Source: a virus
Direction: 5' to 3' (one strand)
Length of the DNA stretch: 21,280 bases
IMG/VR virus record: IMGVR_UViG_3300002223_000026
Span: 1-21,280 of that record
Shown here: positions 1,086-20,108 of the stretch, one piece after another
Layout of the letters: every line of letters begins with the position of its first letter
How positions within the stretch are numbered: the stretch's first letter is position 1
Notes under the pieces: model-generated
Databases searched by the model: none
Told to the model about the DNA's origin: nothing
Seen by the model: only the letters and a program-made list of their open reading frames with translations
Position numbers and translations under genes: made by a program

Positions 1086-2735
1086 ATGACAAAGGAAGAA
1101 TTTATAGCACAGGTTTCCACATCCCCACGATACATCGCAATATGCCGGAAACTACTTCGCGGCAATTCCCTTTACAAAGACTTATTTCAGGATTTACTTG
1201 TAGAACTTCTCGAATCAAAAGAGGATCGGTTTACGGAGATACTATGCCCGGATTGTTTTATTTACAGGATGTTATCGAACATGGTAAACTCAAAGACAAG
1301 CAGGTTCCACTACAAGTACCGGGATCGGCTAGACAAGAAAGAGCTTTTGAGAATTACCGACTCAGAACACTACGACCATTCTTTGGACATAGATGCAAAA
1401 CGGGCAAACAGGGTAATAGAATCCCTTCCGTGGCATGACAAACAACTATTCAGGGAGTGGACGGATGGAAAATATAAAACCAAAATAGCAAGAGAAAAAA
1501 ATATTCCTATTTATTTTGTAAGGTCAAAAGTAGAAGCCATCAAAAGAAAGGTTCAAGCAGAGATAATAATTAAGAACATGGAACAGCCGATGAAGATACT
1601 ACTTGTGGTTCAAAAGGAAACGACTGCTCTTCAGTATCACCGCCAATATATCCCACACGAAAGATTAAATAAGACACACAACAATGAATTTAAAATAGAG
1701 TTTACTCACGGCAGCGGAGAAGACGCAAATATTGATGGTATGACCGATGAACAGATATTAGAATATCAGGCAATATATTTTCTTCGGCAAATAAGTTTCA
1801 ACAAGGAGCGAACAGACAGAACAATCGAAAGACTTAAAAGGTTAGGACGCAAAATAATTCTTGACATTGATGACTATTGGATGCTCCCCGATGACCACCA
1901 TTGGTACGAAAGATATAACAAGGAGAATGTGGCACATAGGATAATAGATACTCTAAAGAGGGTTGACCACGTAATAACTACCACACCAACATTCGCACAT
2001 AGGATAAGATCATACAATACCAATGTAACCGTACTCCCTAACTGCATATCCCCGGATGCAAAGCAGTTTACAATAAGGGAAATTCAATCATCGCGTCTTC
2101 GATTTGGTTGGATAGGCGGTATATTTCACAAGCCGGACATAGCGATAATGAAATCTACATTTCCGAAAATATCAAAAAACATATACAACGATATTCAGGT
2201 ATGTGTTGGCGGCTTTTCATGTAACTATGAATACAAAGAGATTGAAAAGACATTCACATCTAATTATTCGTTCAAGAATTCAGACGCAACATATTATAAT
2301 TATCTTCGGCAGTGCACTCCAAATATGGAACACATATCTTACAATAAACAATATCGAAGATTATGGGGAAGATCCATAGAGACATACGGCGATCTTTACA
2401 ACGAGATAGACGTAGCACTCGTTCCGCTAAAAGAAAATGGGTTTAATAAATGCAAATCAGAACTAAAGATTGTAGAAGCCGGATGGATGAAGAAGGCAGT
2501 TATCTGTTCTGATATGAGCCCTTATAGAGAATGGATACGTCATGGCATTAACGGATTTTTAGTACCTCATTCGCGTAATAACATAGACTGGTGTGTATAC
2601 ATAAGAAAACTCACACTCAATCCATCAATGGCGCGGGATATGGGTCTTGCTCTTCACGAAACAATAACTAAGAATTTCGACCTCGACACCCATAATAGGA
2701 CGAGGGCGGATTTATATAAATCATTATTGCTATGA
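1086..2735 (+). CDS. Sigma-70-like domain fused to GT-B (GT4-like) glycosyltransferase
   Basis: One uninterrupted 549-codon frame joins two unrelated modules. Residues 1-160 resemble a small phage or ECF-type sigma factor. A region-2-like helix (DLFQDLLVELLE) lies at about 32-43, followed by CFIYRMLSNMVNS. A region-4-like helix-turn-helix spans about 111-158 (ESLPWHDKQLFREW, then KIAREKNIPIYFVRSKV). Residues 169-549 look like a GT-B glycosyltransferase. They begin MKILLVV, contain the strand KIILDIDDYW, and end in a GT4-like donor site with EAGWMKKAVICSD near 486 and GINGFLVP. Translation could also begin inside, at ATG 1578 (M165) or 1590 (M169), freeing the transferase. The end overlaps the next start as ATGA. 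The sigma assignment is by pattern only. The fusion is unusual and may mark where the glycan cassette joined the phage backbone. Confidence 0.75.
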   Translation: MTKEEFIAQVSTSPRYIAICRKLLRGNSLYKDLFQDLLVELLESKEDRFTEILCPDCFIYRMLSNMVNSKTSRFHYKYRDRLDKKELLRITDSEHYDHSLDIDAKRANRVIESLPWHDKQLFREWTDGKYKTKIAREKNIPIYFVRSKVEAIKRKVQAEIIIKNMEQPMKILLVVQKETTALQYHRQYIPHERLNKTHNNEFKIEFTHGSGEDANIDGMTDEQILEYQAIYFLRQISFNKERTDRTIERLKRLGRKIILDIDDYWMLPDDHHWYERYNKENVAHRIIDTLKRVDHVITTTPTFAHRIRSYNTNVTVLPNCISPDAKQFTIREIQSSRLRFGWIGGIFHKPDIAIMKSTFPKISKNIYNDIQVCVGGFSCNYEYKEIEKTFTSNYSFKNSDATYYNYLRQCTPNMEHISYNKQYRRLWGRSIETYGDLYNEIDVALVPLKENGFNKCKSELKIVEAGWMKKAVICSDMSPYREWIRHGINGFLVPHSRNNIDWCVYIRKLTLNPSMARDMGLALHETITKNFDLDTHNRTRADLYKSLLL

Positions 2736-3409
2736 AAATCGGCATAGGGGTAACAACATATAAAAGGCCGGAACATTTGGAAGTATGGAGGCAACAGATA
2801 GATATATTACGCCCTCCCGATTCTGTTATTTATACTGCGTATGATGCTCCGGAAAGAAAAGGAATAGCGTATAGAAAAAATGAATGTCTCCGCACCTTGA
2901 AAGATTGCGACTATATATTCCTTTTCGATGATGACTGTTTTCCTATTAAGAACGGCTGGGCAGAGTTTTTCATTGAGTCAAGTAAAATAACCAAGCAACA
3001 GCATTATTTATATCTAAAGGAAACCCCGACAATTAAGAAGATTAAGTGGGATTATGATTATTCAATACTTGGAGAGTATAATAATTGTTCCGGCTGTTTT
3101 ATGTTCTTGACAAAAGAGGCTATTGAGAAGGTAGGGGCTTACAATCCGGCTTATGGATACTACGGATTCGAGCACGCTGGATATTCAAATCGCATTCACG
3201 CTGCCGGACTAACCCCGCGCGGTAAGTACACTTGTCCTGCCGGAGCCGGAGACTACATCTACGCAATGGATTTTGACTATCACCTGCCATTCAATAAGCA
3301 AGTAAAACACGATCCGAGCTTAAAGGACGAACTACATTTACTTGAATCATATCTGAAGAAGAACAAAGAGATATATGATAATGACACCAAAATATACCAA
3401 CCTCTATAA
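2732..3409 (+). CDS. GT-A (GT2-like) glycosyltransferase
   Basis: The 225-residue protein has a GT-A layout. It opens with the strand MKIGIGVTTYKRP typical of GT2 enzymes, followed by RKGIAYRKNECL at about 42-53. An acidic DDD metal/nucleotide-sugar motif lies at 66-68 (FLFDDDCFP), a GCFMFLT strand at 121-127, and an acceptor-side G-x-E-H at 145-148. It should transfer a sugar from a nucleotide donor in the cytoplasm; neither sugar nor acceptor can be read from sequence. No membrane segment is evident. The start overlaps the end of the upstream fusion gene (ATGA), so the two are probably translationally coupled. It is short for a GT2 enzyme but shows no sign of truncation. Confidence 0.8.
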   Translation: MKIGIGVTTYKRPEHLEVWRQQIDILRPPDSVIYTAYDAPERKGIAYRKNECLRTLKDCDYIFLFDDDCFPIKNGWAEFFIESSKITKQQHYLYLKETPTIKKIKWDYDYSILGEYNNCSGCFMFLTKEAIEKVGAYNPAYGYYGFEHAGYSNRIHAAGLTPRGKYTCPAGAGDYIYAMDFDYHLPFNKQVKHDPSLKDELHLLESYLKKNKEIYDNDTKIYQPL

Positions 3410-3420
3410 ATAGTTTACTA

Positions 3421-4101
3421 ATGACCATCCTTTACAAATTCGCTTCCCGATCCCGTCCTGAAAAGTTTATAACCTGCGTAGAGAATATCTATATAAACTC
3501 AAGAAACAAGGAATTTACTATTTTAGCTTCTCTTGATCTTGACGATAAGACAATGAACAATGAAGCCATGATAGAAAAGATGAAACGATATGAAGGAAAA
3601 CTATACCCGGTATTTGGCGTAAGCAAAAATAAAGTGGCTGCCATAAACAGGGATATGGATAAGGCTCCTAAATTTGATGTTTTAATAAATATGTCTGATG
3701 ATATGATGTTTATTGCCGAGGGGTATGACAGAACCATAGAGGAAGATATTGCCAGGTGGTATCCTGATGGGGATTGCCTGCTACATTACCCAGATCAGAA
3801 TCAAGGCTCTAACTGCATGACAATGAGTATTATGGATAAAAAATATTATGACCGCTTCGGATATATCTATAACCCTGACTATGAATCTCTTGAATGTGAC
3901 CTAGAGGCGCAGGAGGTTGGAAAGAGACTTGGCAGATATAAATTCATAAACAAAAGACTGTTCAACCATTACCATCCATCATTCGGACAAACCCCTTATG
4001 ATAATCAGTATGATAAGACAGAGGGCAGATACGATGTGGCTATAAGGAATAGGGATAAGGATACTTATATCAGAAGAGAGAGTAAGAATTTTTATTTATG
4101 A
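3421..4101 (+). CDS. Putative GT-A glycosyltransferase
   Basis: This 226-residue soluble protein probably belongs to the GT-A superfamily. It starts with an ILYKFASRSRP strand, has SKNKVAAINRDM at 68-79 (the position where GT2 enzymes contact the donor), and an acidic SDDM motif at 92-95 in place of a standard DxD. A C-terminal HYHP lies at 183-186, where a metal-binding His is often found. It is less GT2-like than its neighbours, so the assignment is moderate. The donor and acceptor are unknown. It follows the previous gene after 11 A/T-rich bases and overlaps the next start as ATGA. Confidence 0.65.
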   Translation: MTILYKFASRSRPEKFITCVENIYINSRNKEFTILASLDLDDKTMNNEAMIEKMKRYEGKLYPVFGVSKNKVAAINRDMDKAPKFDVLINMSDDMMFIAEGYDRTIEEDIARWYPDGDCLLHYPDQNQGSNCMTMSIMDKKYYDRFGYIYNPDYESLECDLEAQEVGKRLGRYKFINKRLFNHYHPSFGQTPYDNQYDKTEGRYDVAIRNRDKDTYIRRESKNFYL

Positions 4102-4670
4102 AACTATCCATCCTCATACCTTCTCTTGAATCCAGGGCTGCACAGCTTATCTGTTTGAAAGAAGAATTATTTGCACAGATAGTTCAATGTAAAGCAGTTG
4201 ATGATGTGGAAATTATTACAAGCGTGGATAGAGGAGAAGCAACAATCGGGAGCAAGAGAAACCTACTTCTTTCAAAAGCAACAGGGAGCTATATTTGTTT
4301 CTTTGATGATGATGACACTCCCTCTACTACATACGTTCAAAAGATACTTGATTGTATTGAAACGGCCTGTGACAACTGTTCCATGATTGGTAGAATAACT
4401 TTCGATGGCTCAACGCCGGAAATATTTGAGCATTCGATTAAATACAAAGAGTACCGCACCAATGAAACCGTCCCGGTTAAATATGAACGCTATCCTAATC
4501 ATCTTAATGTTATTAGGGCTGAGATAGCAAAGAAATTTAGCTTCCCAGAAATAAATCACGGGGAGGACACTGATTGGGCGACACAAATTTTTAAATCAGG
4601 ACTACTGAAGAACGAGACTAAAATAGAAGGGGTCCTGTACCACTATGATTATAAAACAAAAAATGACTAA
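4098..4670 (+). CDS. GT2-family glycosyltransferase
   Basis: The 190-residue protein shows a compact GT2 core: MKLSILIPSLESR at the N-terminus, GSKRNLLLSKATGSY at 51-65, a run of four Asp at 70-73 forming the DxD metal site (FFDDDDTP), and GEDTDW at 155-160, matching the family's ED catalytic-base region. It likely transfers a sugar with inversion onto a growing glycan in the cytoplasm. There are no transmembrane helices, unlike many polysaccharide GT2 enzymes. The start lies in an ATGA overlap with the previous gene. It is at the short end for GT2 but contains all expected core motifs. Confidence 0.85.
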   Translation: MKLSILIPSLESRAAQLICLKEELFAQIVQCKAVDDVEIITSVDRGEATIGSKRNLLLSKATGSYICFFDDDDTPSTTYVQKILDCIETACDNCSMIGRITFDGSTPEIFEHSIKYKEYRTNETVPVKYERYPNHLNVIRAEIAKKFSFPEINHGEDTDWATQIFKSGLLKNETKIEGVLYHYDYKTKND

Positions 4671-5523
4671 AGCCATATCATATAGTTTATTTGGATATGA
4701 GAGAGAAAGGGCAGACTCCTGCTTTGATTTTGCAAGTTACCTTCGAGGATTAATGCTATGTCTTCGGTTTAACAGACTGATATATCCTGACTGGTTTACC
4801 ATACTCGAAACAGATCACGCCACCTATAACGGCTTCGCTTCACTTTTTAAAGCATTGGAGGATAGAAACATTATTCGCATTGAAAAGAATAAGAACGGCA
4901 CCCCGATTTGTGAAGCAATGCTTTGGAGAATGAAACCTGTTTTTTGGAAGGACACATTTAACAAGTGGGAATTTTCTCATGTCCTCTGTCGAGATCTGGA
5001 CTCTCCGGCAACTTACCGGGAGGCACAAGCCGTGCAAGTTTGGATCAATCACGACAAGGCCATGCACGCCATCACGGACTCAGTTAGCCACGACGTACCG
5101 CTGCTTGGGGGGATGATCGGGGTTAATCCGGCATATTTTTCTGAGCGTATGAAAGTTAACTCACATGATGACCTAATGAAATTATGTAGCCATAGTCTTG
5201 GGAACAAGGGCAGCGATCAGGTTTTTTTAAATCAAACTATATACCCCGAATTCGCGCAAAAGGGACGAGACAGCATCACACAACATTATGTATTAGGACA
5301 TGGGCAGACGTGGCTCGGGGACTGGCATAATACTATCGAAGATATACCATTGGGAATACCCGAAGAACTGAAGGAGACGAATATTATCTGTGGGCATATT
5401 GGCGCGGCTGGATGGTACGAACCCCCTACTATGAAACTCATCTATAAATACAAACATAAATTTACTGATCTTATAGAAATCGAAAGGCAATATCCAAAAA
5501 CATTCACATGGAACCAGGACTAA
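4663..5523 (+). CDS. Putative glycosyltransferase (GT-A type)
   Basis: I place the start at ATG 4663, giving 286 residues that begin MTKAISYSLFGY and overlap the previous stop by 8 bases. An ATG at 4645 would add six residues and a longer overlap. The sequence has a fold cue CLRFNRLIYPDW at 33-44, RMKPVFW at 89-95, and a D-L-D motif at 111-113 inside VLCRDLDSPATYRE. This DLDS-P-R-E arrangement resembles GT-A proteins that bind metal and nucleotide sugar. HDVPLLGGMIGV at 143-154 is a likely acceptor-side loop. No membrane segments are visible. The exact family and sugar are unknown. Confidence 0.65.
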   Translation: MTKAISYSLFGYERERADSCFDFASYLRGLMLCLRFNRLIYPDWFTILETDHATYNGFASLFKALEDRNIIRIEKNKNGTPICEAMLWRMKPVFWKDTFNKWEFSHVLCRDLDSPATYREAQAVQVWINHDKAMHAITDSVSHDVPLLGGMIGVNPAYFSERMKVNSHDDLMKLCSHSLGNKGSDQVFLNQTIYPEFAQKGRDSITQHYVLGHGQTWLGDWHNTIEDIPLGIPEELKETNIICGHIGAAGWYEPPTMKLIYKYKHKFTDLIEIERQYPKTFTWNQD

Positions 5524-5693
5524 AAAAAATATACACAGACAACGATATTAAGTTGTTTGAAAAAAGTGTGGATTTAGTAGATTCAACGGATGAGTATCGT
5601 ACAATAATACTAAAGATAGGAGAAATGTTATTCGGATTTGAATTTGCTTTCAATAAACTAATACATACATGGCAGAAAAAAGAAGAACAGTAG
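5508..5693 (+). CDS. Small hypothetical protein in the glycan cassette
   Basis: This 61-residue protein starts at ATG 5508 inside the end of the previous gene and runs 25 bases into the next one. The tight nesting on both sides supports a real, coupled gene. The sequence is helical and charged, with an aromatic stretch (LFGFEFAF) near residues 42-49 and a basic/acidic tail. There is no signal peptide, metal site or recognisable domain. It might be a small partner of a neighbouring transferase, but nothing in the sequence proves that. Confidence 0.5.
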   Translation: MEPGLKKIYTDNDIKLFEKSVDLVDSTDEYRTIILKIGEMLFGFEFAFNKLIHTWQKKEEQ

Positions 5694-6415
5694 TAGTCAG
5701 CACAAATAATAACCCGGATTATTATTTTTATACACCCTATATCGAAAGGGCATGGAACATACTAGGATGGGATCTGGCCATCCTGATTACACAGGACGTT
5801 GATACAAAGGAGTTATTAATTAATAATCCCGATACGATGCTGATGCGAATCCCGGAAATTAAGGGATTGCGTTCCGAAACGCTAGCTCAGGGGGGGAGGC
5901 TTTACGCGGCAAATTATATGTCGAAAGACACATTCATAATGACTAGCGACATGGATATGCTTCCACTATCTGATTACTGCAAGCCGAAATATGAGGACAT
6001 AACCATTCATGGGCATGACTTGACTGATTATACTTATTACCCAATGGGTTATGCCGCAATGAACGGGCACAAGTGGAAGGAAGTAATGAACCTCACAGGA
6101 CTCACAGAGAACGACTTTGAGAGGGACGCAAAAGCCCAGCCGATATGCTACGCGCCGGACTGGGAAACATGGTGGAACTGGGATTGGAGAGTGCTTACTG
6201 ACAAGCTGGCCCCGTACAAGAAGCAGATTAAATTTGTTCCCAGAGGAAGACGTGAAGGAGAACCGTTTGCCTTCGGACGCATCGACAGGGGGGATAGCAT
6301 GAAGATAATACCGGGGCCGTGGATTGATGCCCACTGTGAGAATAATAACGTCCGTCACGAATCAAAGCTACTTAGGTTTTTGGAGATATTTGAGGCTACT
6401 TACGGAAAGCTATGA
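5669..6415 (+). CDS. Putative GT-A glycosyltransferase with DMD motif
   Basis: The 248-residue protein begins with a basic stretch and a beta strand (RRTVVVST). It carries AQGGRLYAA at 73-81 and a D-M-D motif at 94-96 in TSDMDMLPLSD, the form expected of a GT-A metal/donor site. Its C-terminal part has IDAHCEN at 219-225, where a His could complete the metal shell, and a Trp-rich loop at about 165-173. It probably transfers a sugar in the cytoplasm; specificity cannot be read. A run of seven G at 5890-5896 lies inside the gene and encodes the Gly-Gly of the AQGGRL segment. The last four bases overlap the next start (ATGA). Confidence 0.65.
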   Translation: MAEKRRTVVVSTNNNPDYYFYTPYIERAWNILGWDLAILITQDVDTKELLINNPDTMLMRIPEIKGLRSETLAQGGRLYAANYMSKDTFIMTSDMDMLPLSDYCKPKYEDITIHGHDLTDYTYYPMGYAAMNGHKWKEVMNLTGLTENDFERDAKAQPICYAPDWETWWNWDWRVLTDKLAPYKKQIKFVPRGRREGEPFAFGRIDRGDSMKIIPGPWIDAHCENNNVRHESKLLRFLEIFEATYGKL

Positions 6416-7101
6416 ATCACCTGTTTATAAAGGCATACGACAAGGACGACTATATTGCCAGACTCTGTTATGAAAGCTGGATGTTGGCCGGGTACGAGGG
6501 GACTGTTACATTTTACTGTCAGCGTAAATGCCCTCACCCTACCTATGATAGAAAATATGTCCCAAACTGGATAGTCGAATGCGGCAGAATAATCTTCCAT
6601 GATAATCTCGTCTCTAATTTCGGAGGCACGGATGGTGTTAATGCCCTTCTGGAAGGACTCAAACAATTAAAATTTGATGACGAAGACTATGTAATAACCT
6701 GTGATACAGATGTGATTATTAAAGAGAATCCATTGAATAAGTTTAAAGGATTAATAGATGGTTATGTTATAGATTTTTCCGGGACAGGAGATAATATCAA
6801 ATCTGCCAACCCTAACCAACCCCCTATCGCACATATCAGCGGACAATTACAAATTATAAGGGGGGGAATCCTTCGGGAAATACTTAAAGCTAAAAAAGAC
6901 GATGCTGACCGAACCGGCAATGCAATGATAAAAATGGGATTGGGTATATGCGATGACACCTTCATGAGTTACCGTGTATGGGAACTTAGGGGGAACGTAA
7001 AAATACTGAAGGGGATGTGGGGCCATACCAAATGCTATGACTATGAGCCGAGGACGGATTGGAAAAATATTATTAATGAAATAAAAATCAGCGATGAGTA
7101 A
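6412..7101 (+). CDS. Putative GT-A glycosyltransferase with DTD motif
   Basis: This 229-residue protein has a short strand at the N-terminus (HLFIKAYDKDDY), a D-T-D motif at 98-100 (YVITCDTDVII), a HISGQLQIIRGG strand and loop at 141-152, and an acidic pair at 181-182 in GICDDTFMSYR. A C-terminal MWGHTKC near 202-208 could supply the last metal ligand. The order DxD, then mid-domain strand, then acidic residues, then C-terminal His is typical of GT-A transferases. Donor and acceptor are unknown. A G7 run at 6860-6866 lies in the gene. It overlaps the previous gene by 4 bases and the next by 8. Confidence 0.65.
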   Translation: MNHLFIKAYDKDDYIARLCYESWMLAGYEGTVTFYCQRKCPHPTYDRKYVPNWIVECGRIIFHDNLVSNFGGTDGVNALLEGLKQLKFDDEDYVITCDTDVIIKENPLNKFKGLIDGYVIDFSGTGDNIKSANPNQPPIAHISGQLQIIRGGILREILKAKKDDADRTGNAMIKMGLGICDDTFMSYRVWELRGNVKILKGMWGHTKCYDYEPRTDWKNIINEIKISDE

Positions 7102-7846
7102 CGGAACAGCTACCTGCAACTATATGGGACGTACCGGAAACCGCCTATTTCAAATGGCGGCTACGATTGGATATGCACTAGACCATAACAAGCAATTCGT
7201 ATTTCCTAAATGGGAATGGCAAAAATATATGCCCGTTAAGGAGGGAGAGATAAAAGGGACATTAGTAGTGGAGGAAAGTTTACGATATACAAGATTTCCA
7301 TTTGTTGAGGGAGACGTTACAATACACGGACACCTTCTTTCAACAAAGTATTTCAACCACCACAAGAAGTATATAGTGGAATATTTTAAATTAACTCCTG
7401 AGTGGGAGGAATACATAGAAAAAAAATATGAAAGACTTTTTCTTGCAAATACTTGTTCTATTCATATCCGTAGAGGAGACTTTATGCTCCCGGAACAAAT
7501 GGCCTGCCAAGGATTAATGCCTTTAGAATATTACAATGAAGCAATTGGTAAAATATGGGATACTCCATATAATGAATGGCTTTTTATTGTTTGCTCTGAT
7601 GATATACCTTGGTGTAAAGAAAACTTTAAAGGAGAACATTTTTATTTTATCGAGAATGAACCGGCCATTATAGACTTGTTCATTATGAGTATGTGCAACG
7701 ACAATATAATTTCTAACAGCTCCTTCGGTTGGTGGGCGGCCTACCTCAATCAAAGTCCCAACAAGCGGGTAGTTGCGCCAAGACAATGGTTTAAGGATAC
7801 TGAAGGATGGGATGATCTTTATGAAAAAAATTGGATTAAGATATGA
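7094..7846 (+). CDS. GT11-family alpha-1,2-fucosyltransferase-like protein
   Basis: This is the most clearly identified enzyme of the cassette. The 250-residue protein has the GT11 signature blocks in order: GRTGNRLFQMAA at 12-23, HIRRGDF at 124-130 (the GDP-fucose-contacting HxRRGD motif), VCSDDIPWCK at 166-175, and SNSSFGWWAAYL at 207-218. GT11 enzymes transfer L-fucose from GDP-fucose, usually in alpha-1,2 linkage to galactose. Closely related members can use other acceptors. It is somewhat shorter than typical bacterial members (about 280-300 residues) but all core motifs are present. No GDP-fucose synthesis genes are visible, so the donor would have to come from the host. It overlaps its neighbours at both ends. 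Confidence 0.92.
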   Translation: MSNGTATCNYMGRTGNRLFQMAATIGYALDHNKQFVFPKWEWQKYMPVKEGEIKGTLVVEESLRYTRFPFVEGDVTIHGHLLSTKYFNHHKKYIVEYFKLTPEWEEYIEKKYERLFLANTCSIHIRRGDFMLPEQMACQGLMPLEYYNEAIGKIWDTPYNEWLFIVCSDDIPWCKENFKGEHFYFIENEPAIIDLFIMSMCNDNIISNSSFGWWAAYLNQSPNKRVVAPRQWFKDTEGWDDLYEKNWIKI

Positions 7847-8424
7847 AAACTATTGACGGACATACGATTGACGAAACACTTCTGACCGGAGGCGTAGTCA
7901 TTGATATTGGATGTAGAGGGTTTGCCTTTGAAAAAGAGTTTGAAAAATGCCAAGTATACTCTATTGATGCTGATGAATCAGCTGTTCCATATAAATATCG
8001 CTATAATCTACAAACAAGAAAAGCGATATTTAATTTAGCCATAACACCAAATGACGGCACTACAACATATTATAAATTGGGCGAATCGGGATATACAAAA
8101 GACATAAAAGAATTCACGCCGGAAGAAGGTATCATAGTTGAGAGTATGAAACTTAATACCTTTTATGAAATAAATATATTGCCATTCGAAGAAGTAGATA
8201 TACTCAAACTAGACATAGAGGGAGGGGAGTATTCCATCCTTGCAGATCCGAATTTTCGCCCACTCCCCAAACAAATAACCGTAGAATTCCACGATCACGT
8301 CTTCCCAGAATTGCATAAAGAAATGTATCCTAAAGTTCTGAGTAACTTAAAGGACTTAGGATACGACCTTGTTTACCAACGTCCCGATGCCCCATTAATG
8401 GATTGTTTATTTATAAGAAGATGA
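7843..8424 (+). CDS. FkbM-like SAM-dependent methyltransferase
   Basis: The 193-residue protein has a class I methyltransferase fold. VIDIGCRGF at 19-27 is the SAM-binding motif I, YSIDADE at 39-45 is the acidic end of strand 2, and KLDIEGGEYSIL at 122-133 with VEFHDH at 147-152 is the C-terminal block typical of FkbM-type enzymes. FkbM proteins O-methylate small molecules and sugars, which fits a location between a fucosyltransferase and another transferase. The GCRG replaces the more common G-x-N-x-G/G-x-G loop and is shared with the gene at 9085. It starts in an ATGA overlap and ends in another one. Confidence 0.8.
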   Translation: MKTIDGHTIDETLLTGGVVIDIGCRGFAFEKEFEKCQVYSIDADESAVPYKYRYNLQTRKAIFNLAITPNDGTTTYYKLGESGYTKDIKEFTPEEGIIVESMKLNTFYEINILPFEEVDILKLDIEGGEYSILADPNFRPLPKQITVEFHDHVFPELHKEMYPKVLSNLKDLGYDLVYQRPDAPLMDCLFIRR

Positions 8425-9095
8425 AAGACTTTTGTTTTGTAAACGTCAGCTTCCGCGAGCCGTATGTCAGTACGCAGAACCGCTTACGTAAATCCATCCT
8501 CTCTATCTATTCTGATGTAACACTTTTCTTTTGGACAGATGAGATGCCTCCTAATGCTAAACTCTTTCATGAAAGCCTATACGGGTTCAAGGTTCACGCC
8601 ATCGAATACGCAAGACAGAAAGGATTTAACAAGGTGATATGGATTGATACGTGTTGTGTGCTGAAAAAAGAAATTGAACGATTATTTGAAGCACTTCCTC
8701 ATTACGGAGTTTACGCGATAAAAGACGATCAGTGCGAGGTTTACAGATATTGTAGTAAGGCGATAAAAGAAAACTTTTCTATACCCAATGACTTATTCTT
8801 AGTGGGGGGTAGTCTTTATATTTTTGACTTCGGCATAAAACTCAGCGAAAAGATATTTAACAAATGGAAAGAAATGGAACAGACGGGGTTTTTCGGCACA
8901 CAGGAAATGATTACCAATGAAAAAAATAATGGCATTGATATTTGTGGCCATAGGATGGATGAAACCTGCCTGTCCATAGCAATAGACCAAAATGGAGTGA
9001 GACCATTATTGCGTCATCTGTGGATGTATGACCAAGTGATAGAAAAAAAACACTTCCTAAAAGAAGGTGAGAAATGGTACAACGATGAAAATTGA
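8421..9095 (+). CDS. Putative glycosyltransferase (GT-A-like)
   Basis: Start ATG 8421 overlaps the previous stop as ATGA, giving 224 residues. A TTG at 8403 in frame is less likely. The protein has a strand FCFVNVSFREPY at the N-terminus, a central WIDTCCVL at 74-81 where a DxD would be expected (here D76-T-C), LFLVGGSLYIF at 125-135, and GHRMDE at 176-181. This order matches small GT-A proteins that move along a glycan, but the metal site is degenerate (Asp-Thr-Cys). The protein may use another residue or be impaired. It is flanked by two related FkbM-like methyltransferases. Confidence 0.55.
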   Translation: MKDFCFVNVSFREPYVSTQNRLRKSILSIYSDVTLFFWTDEMPPNAKLFHESLYGFKVHAIEYARQKGFNKVIWIDTCCVLKKEIERLFEALPHYGVYAIKDDQCEVYRYCSKAIKENFSIPNDLFLVGGSLYIFDFGIKLSEKIFNKWKEMEQTGFFGTQEMITNEKNNGIDICGHRMDETCLSIAIDQNGVRPLLRHLWMYDQVIEKKHFLKEGEKWYNDEN

Positions 9096-9624
9096 AATAG
9101 TAGGAGAACACTCCATTATTCCGAGACTGCTTCCGGTTCGCCATGCAAACATACTCGACCTGGGTTGTCGGGGCTTTGAATTCCGCACTCAGTTTGGTGA
9201 TAGGCATAACGTCTACTGCGTGGACATCGCTGAGCTTGATGACGAGAACTATTACCCGGTAGCCATATCCGATTCGGGTGGATGGTGCGGGGTACACAAT
9301 GACGGGCAGGCAACGCATATAAAAGAGGGCAACGAAATCAAGAAGATGACACTACATTCATTCTCAGAATTTGTGGGTGTAAACCGCTGGGATCTTATAA
9401 AGATGGACATTGAGGGAGAGGAACTCGGAATACTTAAATCATCCATTCATCCCATCGCCAAACAAGTAAGTGTCGAGTTTCACGCACACTGCGGGCAGAC
9501 AAAAGAGGAGATCAATACCCTGTTAGACTGGCTGAGCAAATACTATACTATCCATAACCGGGTATGGGAGCAAAGACACTGTGCCGGATATAATTATTGG
9601 GACGTTTTACTAATAGCTAAATAA
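9085..9624 (+). CDS. FkbM-like SAM-dependent methyltransferase (second copy)
   Basis: I choose ATG 9085, with AAGGTGAG about 11-12 bases upstream, rather than GTG 9067, giving 179 residues. It carries ILDLGCRGFEF at 23-33, VYCVDIAE at 43-50, IKMDIEGEELGIL at 105-117 and VEFHAH at 130-135. These are the same motif set, including the unusual GCRG loop, as the protein encoded at 7843. The two look like distant paralogues separated by one transferase gene, which would allow methylation of two different sugars or positions. It overlaps the previous gene by 11 bases and is followed after 7 bases by the SDR-like gene. Confidence 0.8.
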   Translation: MKIEIVGEHSIIPRLLPVRHANILDLGCRGFEFRTQFGDRHNVYCVDIAELDDENYYPVAISDSGGWCGVHNDGQATHIKEGNEIKKMTLHSFSEFVGVNRWDLIKMDIEGEELGILKSSIHPIAKQVSVEFHAHCGQTKEEINTLLDWLSKYYTIHNRVWEQRHCAGYNYWDVLLIAK

Positions 9625-9631
9625 CTAAATA

Positions 9632-10135
9632 ATGGCAATCATAGGTAAAGGGGATATTGCAAGTGCATTAACCGATCAGGTTGACAAGATATTCTTCGCC
9701 TCGGGCGTGAGTAACTCGTCATGCACGGACTGGCACCAGTACCAAAGGGAAAAGGATTTACTATTAAAGCAGAGTAAGTTTTCCCACCTCGTATATTTCA
9801 GTACCTTGTCGATCTACTATACCGACACCCCATACACAAGGCACAAGAAAATCATGGAGCATTTGGTAAAGGATAATTTTGCGGTAAGCACGATAGTAAG
9901 GATAGGGAATATTACTTGGGGCAGAAATCCTAATACCCTGATAAATTTCTTAAAGGCGAAGATAGAAAATGGCGAACCCCGTGAAGTACAAGACGTTTTC
10001 AGATATATAATAAATAAAGGAGAATTCCTTCACTGGATCAGTCTTATCCCTGATTGGACAACTGAAATGAATCTAACCGGCAAACAATTAAAGGTAAGCG
10101 AGATAGTTAAATTAATACTTCACGATGCAATATGA
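9632..10135 (+). CDS. Short SDR/epimerase-like NAD(P)-binding protein
   Basis: The 167-residue protein looks like a shortened extended-SDR (nucleotide-sugar epimerase/reductase type). It has a glycine-rich start GKGDIA at 5-10, FASGVSNSS at 22-30, a YFSTLSIYY strand with a possible catalytic Ser/Thr near 57-60, and YTRHK at 68-72, a Y-x-x-x-K pair. RIGNITWG at 90-97 matches the strand after the catalytic helix. Normal family members are about 300 residues, so helices between the glycine loop and the active site, and much of the substrate domain, are missing. It may be a minimal reductase or a decayed gene. It ends in an ATGA overlap. Confidence 0.6.
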   Translation: MAIIGKGDIASALTDQVDKIFFASGVSNSSCTDWHQYQREKDLLLKQSKFSHLVYFSTLSIYYTDTPYTRHKKIMEHLVKDNFAVSTIVRIGNITWGRNPNTLINFLKAKIENGEPREVQDVFRYIINKGEFLHWISLIPDWTTEMNLTGKQLKVSEIVKLILHDAI

Positions 10136-10704
10136 AAAACAAATTCATCCCAACCAATAACGACCTATCCTACTATCCCCTCCTCTATAAAGCATTGGAA
10201 GACACCGTTGGAGATATAATTGAAATGGGGACCGGGCACGGGTCAACTCCTCTGTTACATGAATACTGCACATCAAGGAGACGGAAATTACATAGTTACG
10301 AAACAGACAAAAAATGGTTAGCAAAGTTCGAGCAAACCGCAAACGAATACCATAGTTTTACACTCATAGACAGGGGAGCGTGGGATGCCTGCTCGGATCA
10401 AAACCCCAATCCATCGGTAGTATTTATAGATCACGCACCAGGGGAACGCCGAAAAGACGACCTTATCCGGTTTAAAGACTCCGCTGAAATTATCGTAATT
10501 CACGACACCGAGCCGACAGGAGCCGGAGACTACAGGGTAAGACCCTTGTTCAAGCAGTTCAAATATGTGGTAGAGGTAATGAGCAACGCCCCTAATCCAC
10601 ATCAGGCCGGAGCATGGGCAACCGCATTAAGCAATACGGTTGATATAACAAAATGGATTGGCCAAGAATTCGGTAATTATAAAATTGTACAATGGCAGAA
10701 ATGA
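10132..10704 (+). CDS. Class I SAM-dependent methyltransferase-like protein
   Basis: This 190-residue protein has a Rossmann-type methyltransferase pattern: IIEMGTGHGSTP at 29-40 (motif I), HSYETDKKW at 54-62 (acidic strand 2 end), VVFIDHAPGERR at 96-107, and IVIHDTEP at 121-128. The FIDH..R..D..R plus HDTE arrangement resembles small sugar or polysaccharide methyltransferases that use an acidic/His metal-binding site, but substrate and reaction are inferred. It is unlike the two FkbM-type genes. It starts in an ATGA overlap and is the last gene of the glycan cassette, with a 9-base gap to the next gene. Confidence 0.7.
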   Translation: MKNKFIPTNNDLSYYPLLYKALEDTVGDIIEMGTGHGSTPLLHEYCTSRRRKLHSYETDKKWLAKFEQTANEYHSFTLIDRGAWDACSDQNPNPSVVFIDHAPGERRKDDLIRFKDSAEIIVIHDTEPTGAGDYRVRPLFKQFKYVVEVMSNAPNPHQAGAWATALSNTVDITKWIGQEFGNYKIVQWQK

Positions 10705-10713
10705 TTTGAATAA

Positions 10714-10980
10714 ATGGAAAAGGTAATAACAATTCTTGCCCTCGGCTGGCTTGCCTGTCTCTTTGTTCAGATATGGACCTCCTCTTTATGGAAGACAAAG
10801 TACTTGAAAACCCTAAAGCCATTCTCCTGCCAACCCTGTATGGGCTTTTGGATAGGGGTACTTTTCTTCATCAAATACCCATTACCTGAAATTTTTATAC
10901 ATAGTAGTATGACCAGTCTTGCGGCCTTTATGCTTTACAACATCTCTAATATCATCGCAAAACACAATACAGGGATATGA
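10714..10980 (+). CDS. Small membrane protein with C-x-x-C-x-x-F-W motif
   Basis: This 88-residue protein has two to three hydrophobic segments: residues 5-22, 44-55 and 66-81. Between the first two is CQPCMGFWIG at 39-48, resembling the C-x-x-C-x-x-F-W-x-G motif of DUF1360-type small membrane proteins. It should sit in the inner membrane. I recall similar small proteins from Bacteroidota phages, but their role is unknown. A holin-like role cannot be excluded, though nothing supports it. It follows the glycan cassette and overlaps the next gene as ATGA. Confidence 0.55.
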   Translation: MEKVITILALGWLACLFVQIWTSSLWKTKYLKTLKPFSCQPCMGFWIGVLFFIKYPLPEIFIHSSMTSLAAFMLYNISNIIAKHNTGI

Positions 10981-11207: not shown

Positions 11208-11601
11208 ATCAGAGAAATACGGCCTTAATTTACAGCAGATAAAGTTTTGTGAATTTTATGTTACAGCAGACTTCTTTGGTAATGGTGTGGTAGCTTATGC
11301 CGAGGCATACAACATTGATGTGAGTAAGCCAGGACAGCACGCAGTGGCAAGAACTGGAGCATGGAGGCTATTGACGAACGCTGACATTTTAAAATACATC
11401 AATGTTATGCTTGATTCTGAGGGCTTTAACGATGCGTTTGTTGATAAGCAACTATTGCTTGCCATTACACAGAACGCTGACTTAGGGGCAAAGGTGGCAG
11501 CTATACGCGAGTTTAATAAGCTAAAAAAACGTATTGAAGATAAACTAACCATAACGGTTACTAAATTTGATGTAAAATTCAATGACGGAGATAACCTTTA
11601 A
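11197..11601 (+). CDS. terS: Terminase small subunit
   Basis: The 134-residue protein resembles small terminases of the Terminase_2 type. An N-terminal LNLQQIKFCEFYV helix and AYAEAY segment form the DNA-binding helical region. The central WRLLTNADILKYIN (about 56-69) and the C-terminal AIREFNKLKKRI complete the usual helical layout before oligomerisation. It recognises the packaging site and regulates the large subunit. Its position directly upstream of terL with a 20-base overlap supports the call. The start at ATG 11197 overlaps the previous gene by 11 bases. Confidence 0.85.
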   Translation: MESKSEKYGLNLQQIKFCEFYVTADFFGNGVVAYAEAYNIDVSKPGQHAVARTGAWRLLTNADILKYINVMLDSEGFNDAFVDKQLLLAITQNADLGAKVAAIREFNKLKKRIEDKLTITVTKFDVKFNDGDNL

Positions 11602-12790
11602 CAAAGCTGACTTTAATGAAGTATACTTTAGCCATCTTGACAATCCCACGCGGTTTCTGGTATTCTACGGTGGTGCCGGTTCGGGCAAGTCAGTATTCAT
11701 CGCTCAACGTTACATTTATCGCTGCCTCAAAGAGCCATACTTTCGTCTTGTCTACTGCCGTAAAGTAGCAAACACCATAAGAAATTCCCAGTTTCAGTTA
11801 TTTAAAGACCTTATTGCCAGGTCTGGCCTTGGACAGTTCTTTCGCATCAAGGAAGGAAATATGGAGATCGAATGCAATAACGGGAATAAAATGGTTGCCT
11901 TTGGTCTTGACAACAGAGAGAAAATTAAATCCATTCAGGAGCCTACCGATGTATGGGCAGAGGAGATGAATGAATTTGAAGAGGATGACATTAGCCAGTT
12001 ACTTCTTCGGCTTCGTACCAAAAAAGCTATGTTCAATCAGCTTGTAGGTTCATTTAACCCTATAAGTACAGAGCATTGGATATACGATGCCCTTGTTATC
12101 AAGAAAAGATTTGACTGTGAGATGGTTAAGACAACTTATATGGAAAACAGATTTTTACCAGAGAGCTATAAGACCTACTTGGAATCGCTTCGTGATACTA
12201 ACGAAAACTTTTATAAGATATACTGCCTCGGTGAGTGGGGAGGTCAGATCAAAGGGCTTATTTATGAGCACTGGAAACTAACAGACCAAACCCCACAATT
12301 TGCAGATTATATTTACGGGTTGGATTTTGGCTTTAATCACCCTACAGCACTCGTAAAGGTTGGTATAGTGGAGAATAAAACCGTATATGTTAAACAACTT
12401 ATTTATGGATCAGGTCTTACAACGGGAGATTTGATTAACGGCATGAAGAAACTTAATTTGGGAAGCTCCGTGATATACGCAGACTGCGCGCGCCCGGATG
12501 CCATAGAAGAGATATACAGGGCCGGATTCAACATTAAGCCCGCTGACAAATCAAAGGATAGTGTTGTTAATGGAATATTGCAAATCAAAGCCATGAATCT
12601 GCACATCCTTGATGATAGTCCAGACCTGATAAAAGAGATACGAAATTACAGGTGGATGGAGGATAAGAACGGAAAGATAGTGGAGGACGAGCCTGTAAAG
12701 TTCCTTGATGATGGCATGGATGCGATGAGATACGCTATCTATACGCATAATTCGGCCCCAAAAGGAATATACAGAATAGGGTTTGCATAG
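11582..12790 (+). CDS. terL: Terminase large subunit
   Basis: The 402-residue protein is a packaging ATPase-nuclease of the Terminase_3/PBSX kind. Walker A is at 30-37 (GGAGSGKS). A Walker-B-like strand with an acidic pair lies at 122-128 (TDVWAEE), and the coupling motif is near GSFNP at 156-160. The nuclease domain begins at YGLDFGFNHPTALV (D248), with IYADCARPD (D301) and a final acidic cluster FLDDGMDAMRYAI at 375-386. It cuts concatemers and pumps DNA into the prohead. Length is typical for the family and all core motifs are present, so it should be functional. It is the best anchor for classifying the phage. Confidence 0.97.
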   Translation: MTEITFNKADFNEVYFSHLDNPTRFLVFYGGAGSGKSVFIAQRYIYRCLKEPYFRLVYCRKVANTIRNSQFQLFKDLIARSGLGQFFRIKEGNMEIECNNGNKMVAFGLDNREKIKSIQEPTDVWAEEMNEFEEDDISQLLLRLRTKKAMFNQLVGSFNPISTEHWIYDALVIKKRFDCEMVKTTYMENRFLPESYKTYLESLRDTNENFYKIYCLGEWGGQIKGLIYEHWKLTDQTPQFADYIYGLDFGFNHPTALVKVGIVENKTVYVKQLIYGSGLTTGDLINGMKKLNLGSSVIYADCARPDAIEEIYRAGFNIKPADKSKDSVVNGILQIKAMNLHILDDSPDLIKEIRNYRWMEDKNGKIVEDEPVKFLDDGMDAMRYAIYTHNSAPKGIYRIGFA

Positions 12791-12816: not shown

Positions 12817-13482
12817 ATGGGTATGAGACTCCCAAAATCATGGTCAGAAATCAGCATAGGCCAATATCAGCAAATCATAACCATACTCTCTGTATACAAA
12901 GACCCGATTGAGAGGGAGGTAAAATTGATAGCGTTTCTGTCCGGCAAGACAGAAGCAGAGATAGAAGGGCTAACCGTCAAACAGATAACTGATAAGGCCC
13001 GTTCTTTGGGTTTTTTATACGGCCAGCCTCCACAAGGCAAGGTACATACCCATTTTAAATGTAAGGGAAGGAAGTATCAAGCGGTAATACTAACAGAGGG
13101 TATGACTGCTGGCCAGTTCATTGATTTCAATAACGCCGGCAAGGGAGCCTCTGAAGAGGAACTACCCTACCATATGCACGAACTGATAGCCTGTATGTGC
13201 AAGACGAGGAAATTGTTCTGGCAGAAGTGGGAATATATACCATATGACAAGACCTGTGATGACCTGCTTAGTCTTCCAATGACCATAGCCCATCCTTACT
13301 TTGTTTTTTTTTGTCAAGTATTGATAAACTTACAGGAGCCTATTCAGGATTATTTCCACGAAAAGATAAAAATGTCGGAGAAGAAACTAATGAAGATGAC
13401 AAAGAAATTAAAGTCGGTAAAGGATTCTCAGAACACTGGGGATGGTACTGTGTCCTCGACTCGCTCAGTAATAACGACATAA
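12817..13482 (+). CDS. Putative tail-assembly chaperone (zero-frame product)
   Basis: The 221-residue product has a helical N-terminal domain (LPKSWSEISIGQYQQI, then EREVKLIAFLSG) resembling tail-assembly chaperone-like proteins in Bacteroidota phages. Position after the terminases and before the tail genes fits. Within codons 162-166 a run of nine T (13304-13312) forms an ideal T TTT TTT slip site. A second open frame, shifted by -1, runs from there to 13598. Slippage would give a 260-residue protein (165 shared residues plus 95), as in the lambda G/GT pair. The zero frame continues plausibly to 13482 (for example INLQEPIQDYF), so the exact switch point is not proven. Which homologues have a single frame would settle it. 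ATG 12823 is an alternative start. Confidence 0.6.
   Translation: MGMRLPKSWSEISIGQYQQIITILSVYKDPIEREVKLIAFLSGKTEAEIEGLTVKQITDKARSLGFLYGQPPQGKVHTHFKCKGRKYQAVILTEGMTAGQFIDFNNAGKGASEEELPYHMHELIACMCKTRKLFWQKWEYIPYDKTCDDLLSLPMTIAHPYFVFFCQVLINLQEPIQDYFHEKIKMSEKKLMKMTKKLKSVKDSQNTGDGTVSSTRSVITT
13305..13311 (+). promoter_or_regulatory. Candidate -1 ribosomal frameshift site (T TTT TTT)
   Basis: The nine-T run 13304-13312 contains the heptamer T TTT TTT in the correct phase of the chaperone frame (third base of GTT, then two TTT codons). Both frames are open for at least 55 codons beyond it, and the -1 frame ends neatly near the start of the next gene. A downstream stimulatory stem is not evident by eye. 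The same layout could come from one missing T in the assembly, so this stays a candidate. Confidence 0.5.
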
Positions 13483-13598
13483 CCAAGTGGGAAAAGATAA
13501 CAGATATGCCGGTGGTATTCTTTTTAAACTCACTTGCTTTTTACAAGGACAAACAGGATTACCAGAACGAACAAATTAAAGCAAATGGCTCAAGGTAG
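13311..13598 (+). CDS. -1 frame extension of the putative tail chaperone
   Basis: This 95-codon frame has no good start of its own (first usable codon TTG at 13311, directly at the slip site) and is best read as the second half of a frameshifted product. It begins with an acidic/basic linker, then has a more ordered part with GWYCVLDSLSNNDI (from about residue 44) and a helical tail FLNSLAFYKDKQDY. This composition is clearly protein-like. It overlaps the zero-frame product over 172 bases and the next gene over 14. Whether it is made by frameshifting or by an assembly indel cannot be decided here. Confidence 0.55.
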   Translation: MSSIDKLTGAYSGLFPRKDKNVGEETNEDDKEIKVGKGFSEHWGWYCVLDSLSNNDITKWEKITDMPVVFFLNSLAFYKDKQDYQNEQIKANGSR

Positions 13599-17647: not shown

Positions 17648-18309
17648 TGAACGAGCGAGTACCAAGAACGCCAACCTCTACCAGTCAAGGGAATAACCTT
17701 GCTGCTTTAATGGGCAATAACCAACAGCAGGTATATGGAATAAATAATTATGTGGCCTCAAGTGCGGAGAGGGTGGTAATTGTCGGTAATAATAATACAG
17801 TTGGGGAGCGGGCTCAGAACATAACTATTTTGAATAGTTCCGGTTGCATTGTAGCAGGGGGAGTTGTGAATGTGAGTATAATGAACTCTTCAGGCGTTAC
17901 AGTAGTAGAGAGTAATGTTACCTATCAGAATAATGTACAGACATCGAGTTCACTGAATCCGATTTCTGGTGTCTATACACCAACGGTCAGCTTGCCGGTT
18001 AATTTAGACTCAATGCCCGTAGCGCAAGAAGGGCAATGGATGAGGGTCGGAAATGTATGTACGGTATCGGGATCAGTATCTGTTAATCCGACATCGACTG
18101 CAACATATACTTCTTTCGATCTGTCCACTCCCATCCCATCTGCTTTTACAAAGCCTTCAGAATGTGGAGGAGTTGCCTTTGCGGATGATATAGCCAGCAT
18201 GGGCGCGGCTATTGCTGCCGATGTAGCAGATAGGGTACTGTTTGGATGGGTGTCTACCGATACGACGACAAAAACCATGCGATATTCATTTACGTTTAAA
18301 ATAGTCTAA
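17647..18309 (+). CDS. Tail fibre-like protein with beta-helix and C-terminal domain
   Basis: The 220-residue product has an N-terminal low-complexity region rich in Asn, Gln, Ser and Thr, then short repeating valine/isoleucine turns with N/S/G (VVIVGNNNTVGE, then NITILNSSGCIV and VSIMNSSGVTVV at about 59-87), typical of a small beta-helix. From about 106 a distinct domain begins (ISGVYTPTVSLPVNL, then WMRVGNVCTVSGSVSV) that I recognise as a C-terminal domain of Bacteroidota phage fibres. It is probably part of host recognition or the tail tip. It starts in a TAATG overlap and ends in another one. Confidence 0.6.
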   Translation: MNERVPRTPTSTSQGNNLAALMGNNQQQVYGINNYVASSAERVVIVGNNNTVGERAQNITILNSSGCIVAGGVVNVSIMNSSGVTVVESNVTYQNNVQTSSSLNPISGVYTPTVSLPVNLDSMPVAQEGQWMRVGNVCTVSGSVSVNPTSTATYTSFDLSTPIPSAFTKPSECGGVAFADDIASMGAAIAADVADRVLFGWVSTDTTTKTMRYSFTFKIV

Positions 18310-20108
18310 TGCCCGACGATATAGTATTAAAAGTAGTCCTCGAATCAGACCTCGCCGATAAGTCGGTAGGGGATTTAAAGCGTGATTTCAAAGACCTTAC
18401 ACGGCAGATAAACGAGACGAAGATAGGGACGGCTGAATATAAATCAACCCTTGCTTCTTTGGGCATTGTTAAAGGGGGTCTTGAAGACCTGAAACAACAG
18501 ATAAAAGCCCTCAATCCTGAGAGGCAGTTCGCGGCATTTGCAAAGGTTGGGTCAACGGTAGCTTCGGGTTTCGCGGCGGCACAGGCAGCAACAGCACTCT
18601 TTGGAAAGGAAAATGAGGATTTGATGAAGGTACTTGTCCGGGTGCAGGCGGCAACGGCACTGGCAAGCGGCCTTCAGGGGCTAGCCGGATTCGGAAAGGC
18701 ACTACAAACGGCAGGCATGGCACTCAAAGCCTTTGCTCTTACAAATCCATTTACAGCCATTGCGGTAGGGATAGTAGCTGTCATTGCGTTAATAGCCAAG
18801 TTCACAGACGGATTGTGGGGGGCTAGTAAATCGTATCAGGCCAATGTAGATGCTGCAAATAAACAGCTTGGGATCGAGCAGAAGAAACTTGAATCAATAA
18901 CGCTTCAGGAAAATATATTAAGGCTTCAGGGTAAAAGTGAAAAAGAAATTCTTGAAGCTAAAATTAAGCAGACAGATGAGGTGATCCGCGCAAGCGAAGC
19001 ATCTCTTATCTCCACAAAAGAACAGATCAATGCGCAGATAGAAGTGGCAAAAAGGAACAGAGATGTTCTTGAGGGATACATAAAACTTGTTTCCGCTCCG
19101 CTAACTTTACTTTTAAAGGGGATCGACCTTGCAGGGGAAGCACTTGGAAAACAATTTGGTCTTGTAGATAAGTTTGCCGGTGGATTGGCTGAAATGGTAT
19201 TCGACCCCAAAGCAATGGAGGATGAAGGGTTAAAGACTATTGAAGCGGCGGAAAAGAGTTTAGCCGAACTCAAAGACCAGCGCGCTGGATTTCAGATAGC
19301 GATTAATAAGATTGACCAAGAGGCAACAAAAAAAACTGAGGATGAAGCCACGAAAAAACTAAAAGAGATAAAGGAATTCTTGGACGAGAAGAAAAAGATT
19401 GAACAGGAAAATATAAACGAAAAGTATGCCTTTGAAAAAAAGGCGGAAGAGGATGCCATTAATGAAAAACTATCTAATGAAAAACTATCAAGGAATTTAG
19501 CAGGACTTCAACAAGCTCAAGCAGATGCGGATGTAGACGCAGAAAAGACCAAGAGAAGGGAAGCCATGATAAAGGAGTTTAAAGAAATGGTTGCCTCCCA
19601 GTCTTTTAAAGCGATAGGTGAGTTAGCTTTAGCATTTGCTGGCAAATCAGAAGCAAGTCAAAGACACGCATTTGCAATAAATAAAGCCGCCGGTATCGCA
19701 TCTACTACAATAGATACCTTTATCGCTGCACAAAAGGCATATGCTTCTCAAGTACTTCCCGGTGATCCTTCCTCAGTAATAAGAGGTTATGTCGCGGCAG
19801 CGCTAGTAACCGCGCAGGGGCTTGCCCGAGTAGCGATAATAGCAAAGACTCAGTTCGGGGGAACATCAGGCGGCAATGGCCCCTCTCCTGGATCCGGTGG
19901 CGGTGGTGCTCCATCCATCTCATCACTACAGGCACAGGAGAATACCTTCCAGAAAACGCAATCAACACAAACACAAACCAACGAGCAGGGAGATTTTACG
20001 GGGTTTCAAGGTGCGGGTGCGAGACCCATCAGAGCATACGTGGTTGAAACAGAAATATCAGCAGTTCAGTCTAATGTAAGGAATATAGAAGAAAGAAGTA
20101 AATATTAA
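18309..20108 (+). CDS. Tail tape measure protein
   Basis: This is a 599-residue protein with the features of a short tape measure. An alanine/glycine-rich helical N-terminus precedes a hydrophobic segment (TAIAVGIVAVIALIAKF at 149-165). A long charged coiled-coil region follows at about 185-425. A second Ala-rich hydrophobic part lies at 436-512, then a Gly/Pro/Ser linker and a C-terminal AYVVETEISAVQSN block. Tape measure proteins set tail length at roughly 0.15 nm per residue, so about 90 nm here if unprocessed. Its presence shows a long-tailed phage (siphovirus or myovirus type). Confidence 0.85.
   Translation: MPDDIVLKVVLESDLADKSVGDLKRDFKDLTRQINETKIGTAEYKSTLASLGIVKGGLEDLKQQIKALNPERQFAAFAKVGSTVASGFAAAQAATALFGKENEDLMKVLVRVQAATALASGLQGLAGFGKALQTAGMALKAFALTNPFTAIAVGIVAVIALIAKFTDGLWGASKSYQANVDAANKQLGIEQKKLESITLQENILRLQGKSEKEILEAKIKQTDEVIRASEASLISTKEQINAQIEVAKRNRDVLEGYIKLVSAPLTLLLKGIDLAGEALGKQFGLVDKFAGGLAEMVFDPKAMEDEGLKTIEAAEKSLAELKDQRAGFQIAINKIDQEATKKTEDEATKKLKEIKEFLDEKKKIEQENINEKYAFEKKAEEDAINEKLSNEKLSRNLAGLQQAQADADVDAEKTKRREAMIKEFKEMVASQSFKAIGELALAFAGKSEASQRHAFAINKAAGIASTTIDTFIAAQKAYASQVLPGDPSSVIRGYVAAALVTAQGLARVAIIAKTQFGGTSGGNGPSPGSGGGGAPSISSLQAQENTFQKTQSTQTQTNEQGDFTGFQGAGARPIRAYVVETEISAVQSNVRNIEERSKY

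Follow-up and report, generated by a model that had tools for sequence, protein, structure and literature searches.

A T9 tract joining two reading frames of a putative phage tail-assembly chaperone gene, a probable site of RNA polymerase slippage

The locus and its two reading frames

The DNA analyzed here (the window) comprises 21,280 nt of the viral record IMGVR_UViG_3300002223_000026, the full length of which is 25,058 bases. The gene for the terminase large subunit (TerL; positions 11582-12790, plus strand; Pfam Terminase_3) is followed directly by an ORF of 221 aa (12817-13482, plus strand), the G-like form, which is documented by the ORF list and by the relatives A6, A7 and A9 and is referred to as the zero frame. 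A run of nine T's (T9; 13304-13312, plus strand), the only run of eight or more T's in the window, lies within this ORF, and the run-length comparison across relatives marks it as the putative slip tract. The zero-frame codons over the run are GTT TTT TTT TGT, which bears out the claim of an earlier note on this DNA that a T TTT TTT heptamer (T_TTT_TTT) is found there in the right phase. A second domain, of 95 codons plus a stop, is encoded in the −1 frame (13311-13598, plus strand). It can be reached only via a frame switch, it is conserved in all the relatives, and 3′ of the run its product reads LSSIDKLTGAYSGLF...EHWGWYCVLDSLSNN...FLNSLAFYKDKQ. The 95-codon length given in the earlier note was confirmed, but its placing of the start of the −1 frame exactly at the run needs correction: this frame is open from position 13272, i.e., 32 nt upstream of the run, to the stop at 13598, and the only part of the domain inside the run is its first codon, TTG (13311).

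The products predicted by in-silico translation depend on the number of U's in the mRNA. Nine U's give the 221-aa protein, ten U's (one extra U) a fusion of 260 aa (12817-13598, plus strand) and seven U's one of 259 aa, and with eight or eleven U's a product of 168-169 aa is obtained. About 60 codons 3′ of T9 (13313-13482, plus strand) are read in two frames in the window, as indicated by the codon-position pattern in relatives and by the predicted helices of the zero-frame tail.

Conservation of the run and of the −1 relation

With either half of the gene as query, 150 further viral loci were found in IMG/VR, and two cultured Nonlabens phages were added via a structure match. The first relative (L002), which was reached through the terminase, carries T11 at the same place and a −1 domain 47% identical to that of the window. 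A search with the −1 domain alone returned 29 loci, and in all of them the ORF upstream can be joined to it only by a −1 shift; the joint is T9 in these loci except for the T11 of L005, which is a contig of L002, so that the T11 case is one and the same. In seven of these 29 first relatives (L013, L022, L026, L027, L029, L032 and L033) a −1-frame stop abuts the run. At least 392 relatives came from the search with the zero-frame protein, a query that presupposes neither the run nor the −1 domain; among 68 new zero-frame loci examined, T9 was found in 66, T10 in one and T7 in one. Searching around the one T7 case (L132) added 53 loci, all with T9, among them L151, a neighbour 78% identical to L132.

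The pooled set consists of 153 loci, 111 of them distinct, and the run is exactly T9 in 108 of the 111 (the others have 11, 10 and 7 T's). After clustering at 70% identity, 61 of the 64 clusters were entirely T9. A −1 shift at the run is needed in all the distinct members, the T10 and T11 relatives included, and in those with an unusual run length the flanks are compensated in such a way that the −1 relation is preserved. The presence of the T run at the junction is not due to chance, since a run of nine or more T's was observed there in 76 of the first 77 distinct relatives and only one other such coding-strand run was found in 547 kb of the same loci. The comparison of homologues, which had been suggested as a means of locating the join, placed the meeting point of the two halves at the T run, with the −1 relation, in the relatives. 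No relative with either half was detected in GTDB genomes (one peptide pattern per search), and among GenBank phages neither the window zero frame nor the L013 −1 domain had a relative. In addition, A9 or A10 runs were noticed about 600-800 nt 3′ of the T9 in L008 (5668), L011 (5596), L028 (3888), L103 (3379), L112 (2892) and L118 (1642); they lie in a small lysine-rich HTH-like ORF, with no evident frame switch.

The two cultured phages, P12024S and P12024L of Nonlabens (Flavobacteriia), carry T9 in the gene directly behind TerL, which is of the PBSX type, and the −1 domain follows. This domain is annotated as a separate hypothetical gene (P12024S_38/39 and P12024L_40/41), and the zero frame ends 24 codons past the run, in contrast to about 60 in the window. 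Profile comparison, at 97.5% (zero frame) and 92.4% (−1 domain), supports placing both phages in the family; it was only the structure search that led to P12024S. The other cultured Bacteroidota phages scanned (RAP44, Harreka_1, P12002L, B124-14 and 6H) showed no comparable −1 junction at a T run. A host among the Bacteroidota is suggested only by the two Nonlabens isolates and by a weak connection to Flavobacterium phage 6H. In 6H (L142) a distant zero-frame relative (10044-10939, minus strand; hhalign 77.7%, 58 columns) lacks T9, and its C-terminal part seems to be in another frame. Flavobacterium phage 11b (L146, NC_006356; 17864-18520) has an A9 at 18173, near the end of PHG11b_38, and the −1 frame is open for 114 codons past it, to the probable tape measure gene; this could be an independent poly-A frame switch in a tail chaperone that is now annotated as two ORFs.

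We then compared codon positions among relatives (119 pairs; 104 upstream). The differences peaked at zero-frame third positions 5′ of the run (0.27/0.18/0.43) and at −1 third positions 3′ of the zero-frame stop (0.21/0.17/0.37). The first 30 codons of the overlap gave a flat pattern (0.32/0.27/0.32), which is that expected when both frames are constrained, and in the first eight −1 codons the second position already changes little (0.12). The zero-frame protein of L078 is predicted (pLDDT 83) to form a helix through the run (residues 175-199) and another at 205-231, and for the −1 domain of the window the model is all-helical, at a modest pLDDT of 69; in these models both tails look like real protein. 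At the sequence level, the −1 junction at T9 is conserved and both frames after T9 are constrained. Since both tails are also protein-like, the switch is assigned to T9 and not to a point further 3′. The codon-position constraint and the predicted helices agree with the earlier impression that the zero frame stays convincing after the run, whereas the suggestion that the actual switch lies further downstream found no support, because the −1 frame is constrained from the first codons after the run.

Homopolymer runs are error-prone, and with one more T the locus would encode a single ORF of 260 aa, so that an assembly or sequencing error in one ordinary 260-residue gene had been put forward as the competing explanation. 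This is untenable, because T9 and the −1 relation recur across distinct relatives: the exact T9 with the same −1 relation is shared by 108 of 111 distinct sequences, which stem from many metagenomes and two isolated phages, the T10 and T11 relatives still require the shift, and 3′ of the run the zero frame is under constraint, too, with a predicted fold. These data refute the error explanation, to which we assign virtually no probability. Long homopolymers also mutate readily, and DNA replication slippage in the tract might toggle the forms of the gene within a phage population. Such phase variation appears very improbable, given a length fixed at nine in 61 of 64 clusters and, where the length departs from nine, compensated flanks that preserve the −1 relation.

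Gene neighbourhood and putative chaperone role

The gene order in the window is TerS-TerL-[T9 gene]-tail genes-tape measure-protease, with the tape measure gene (18309-20108; phrog_9483, E 1e-10) about 5 kb downstream of the T9 gene on the same (plus) strand. The same order from TerL onward was observed in the relatives L078 and L009, in which the tape-measure-like proteins were judged by eye. In L138 (record positions 21000-25058), capsid-like and portal-like ORFs, named by their appearance, come after the tape measure and protease genes, so that in this cluster the tail genes precede the head genes. Upstream of the terminase (1086-10704), the window carries about 10 consecutive ORFs whose translations suggest glycosyltransferases, FkbM-like methyltransferases and further sugar-related enzymes, an unusually large cargo of this kind for a phage of such size.

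By analogy, the most likely function of the T9 gene is that of a tail assembly chaperone of the lambda G/GT type, because its two-form architecture and its place upstream of the tape measure gene fit such a role. If the analogy holds, coating of the tape measure protein would fall to the short form and recruitment of the tail tube protein to the fusion. The G/GT-like layout described in the earlier note, with its two protein halves linked through a programmed −1 switch at the run of T's, was upheld: the two predicted proteins have a common N-terminal domain, and the longer one would be made by a −1 switch. However, the gene lies directly behind TerL and not in the slot between the major tail protein gene and the tape measure gene; hence formal membership of lambda G/GT is not claimed, only that the gene may work like lambda G/GT. 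A match to Phage_TAC_18 (E 0.014; 15.9 bits, cut-off 27) and one to phrog_4963 (E 0.016) were weak and each was seen in one member, and fold searches against the PDB gave nothing significant and no match to a solved or named chaperone. This weakness of the chaperone profile matches, together with the position directly behind the terminase large subunit gene and some 5 kb from the tape measure gene, would also suit a recoded gene of other function, e.g., a head or neck assembly factor. We consider this unlikely, as a tail chaperone is usually recognized by just this combination, two forms with a common N-terminal domain produced by a −1 switch in a gene that precedes the tape measure gene, and no other candidate was noticed in a casual look at the window.

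Slippage by the polymerase or by the ribosome

The gene is probably a two-product tail-assembly chaperone that works like lambda G/GT by means of RNA polymerase slippage at T9. In this mechanism, the RNA polymerase would slip at T9, adding or dropping U's. Most mRNAs would keep nine U's and yield the 221-aa protein, whereas those with one extra U (260 aa) or two fewer (259 aa) would yield a fusion in which the −1 frame supplies the final 95 residues, and those with one fewer or two extra U's would meet a near-immediate stop and give the product of 168-169 aa. How often the polymerase slips would then fix the proportion of short form and fusion. Slippage at runs of A or T has been described before (PMC1088944, PMC4256274, PMC5009743, PMC6260861), nine A or T is the usual slippage run length in bacteria (PMC1088944), and poly(T) is preferred by the E. 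coli polymerase for slippage (PMC6260861).

The earlier note had attributed the switch to a ribosomal slip at the heptamer. The programmed −1 switch stands, but polymerase slippage is its more likely agent, because nine T's are kept in all codon phases and no downstream RNA structure was found. Among distinct sequences the T9 falls in the three codon phases 100, 8 and 3 times, so that what is kept is the length of the run and not one heptamer position; the surplus T's are found 3′ of the heptamer, on both its sides, or 5′ of it. In the alignment, variation amounts to 1.1-1.2 bits in the columns adjoining the run and reaches 1.9 bits a few bases further out. The columns of the run itself show none in that set, but only by construction; the meaningful figure is that no more than 3 of 111 sequences fall outside the set. 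Against a selection on length, the Phe codons of both proteins constrain part of the run. Folding of 77 sequences (without pseudoknots) revealed no RNA structure down- or upstream of the run (mean z about 0), and the upstream Shine-Dalgarno-like AGGNG varies at its key base (T in 45% at position −9). The third frame is entered by transcriptional slippage and not by a −1 ribosomal slip. Of the 64 representatives, 50% have a stop at the very start of this +1 frame and 75% have one within three codons, versus 41% in control stretches, a signal confounded by equally high values at offsets −7 and +7. Since other offsets give similar peaks, the early stop is no proof and is only suggestive of transcriptional slippage. 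Each of these points, i.e., the phases, the missing structure and the closure of the third frame, has a partial alternative reading; taken together, they tip the balance towards transcription and away from translation.

A possible but less probable explanation is that the ribosome shifts to the −1 frame at U_UUU_UUU, in a programmed manner as in lambda G/GT and unaided by RNA stimulators, with the full nine T's as a by-product of protein constraint. The window has the heptamer in phase, the T9 relatives offer it in any codon phase, it is itself shift-prone (U_UUU_UUU is among the heptamers with more than 0.10% shifting without a stimulator in E. coli; PMC4066793), and L132 makes do with T7, so that the ribosome may contribute a share. 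Seven T's would suffice for such a shift, yet nine are kept in three phases; the nearest relative of L132 has T9; no downstream structure is present; and the Gly codon base needed for AGGAG is not kept. Hence, we favour the RNA polymerase over the ribosome as the slipping machine.

As in lambda gpG/gpGT, overlapping ORFs that precede the tape measure gene on the same strand would here give rise to a short form and a −1 fusion. Lambda, however, slips at a ribosomal heptamer near the end of G, beside the tape measure gene (PMC5009743 and general knowledge), whereas in the window the slip is at T9 and falls within a helix predicted for the first protein, the zero frame continues for about 60 codons, and the gene sits behind the terminase. 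An A or T run in a coding region likewise leads to two length forms in tssM1 (A11, Citrobacter rodentium) and in Shigella mxiE, spa13, spa33 and mxiA, with a reported slippage of 15-55% (PMC4256274, PMC5009743), but these are bacterial secretion genes and not phage tail genes; tssM1 was itself likened to lambda G/GT (PMC4256274). In Thermus thermophilus dnaX nine identical bases also serve as a programmed polymerase slip site, but these are A9 and not T9, and slippage there yields the shorter product (PMC1088944). A literature search that covered few subscription journals returned no description of transcriptional slippage in a phage tail chaperone. The gene would thus be of a known kind, the family is apparently undescribed, and the slippage mechanism is probably new for tail chaperones.

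Tail-chaperone frameshifting is a textbook case of ribosomal recoding. On balance, we lean to the view that in this large, mostly uncultured phage family the ratio of the tail-chaperone forms is set by RNA polymerase slippage on a nearly invariant T9, with three products (221, 260 and about 168 aa in the window), as a transcriptional counterpart of lambda G/GT. A T9 in the gene behind the terminase is a sequence mark that joins ORFs now annotated as separate hypotheticals, and the cultured phages are available as test systems for the switch. If true, a two-protein ratio reached by polymerase slippage would suggest that selection keeps the ratio and not the machinery.
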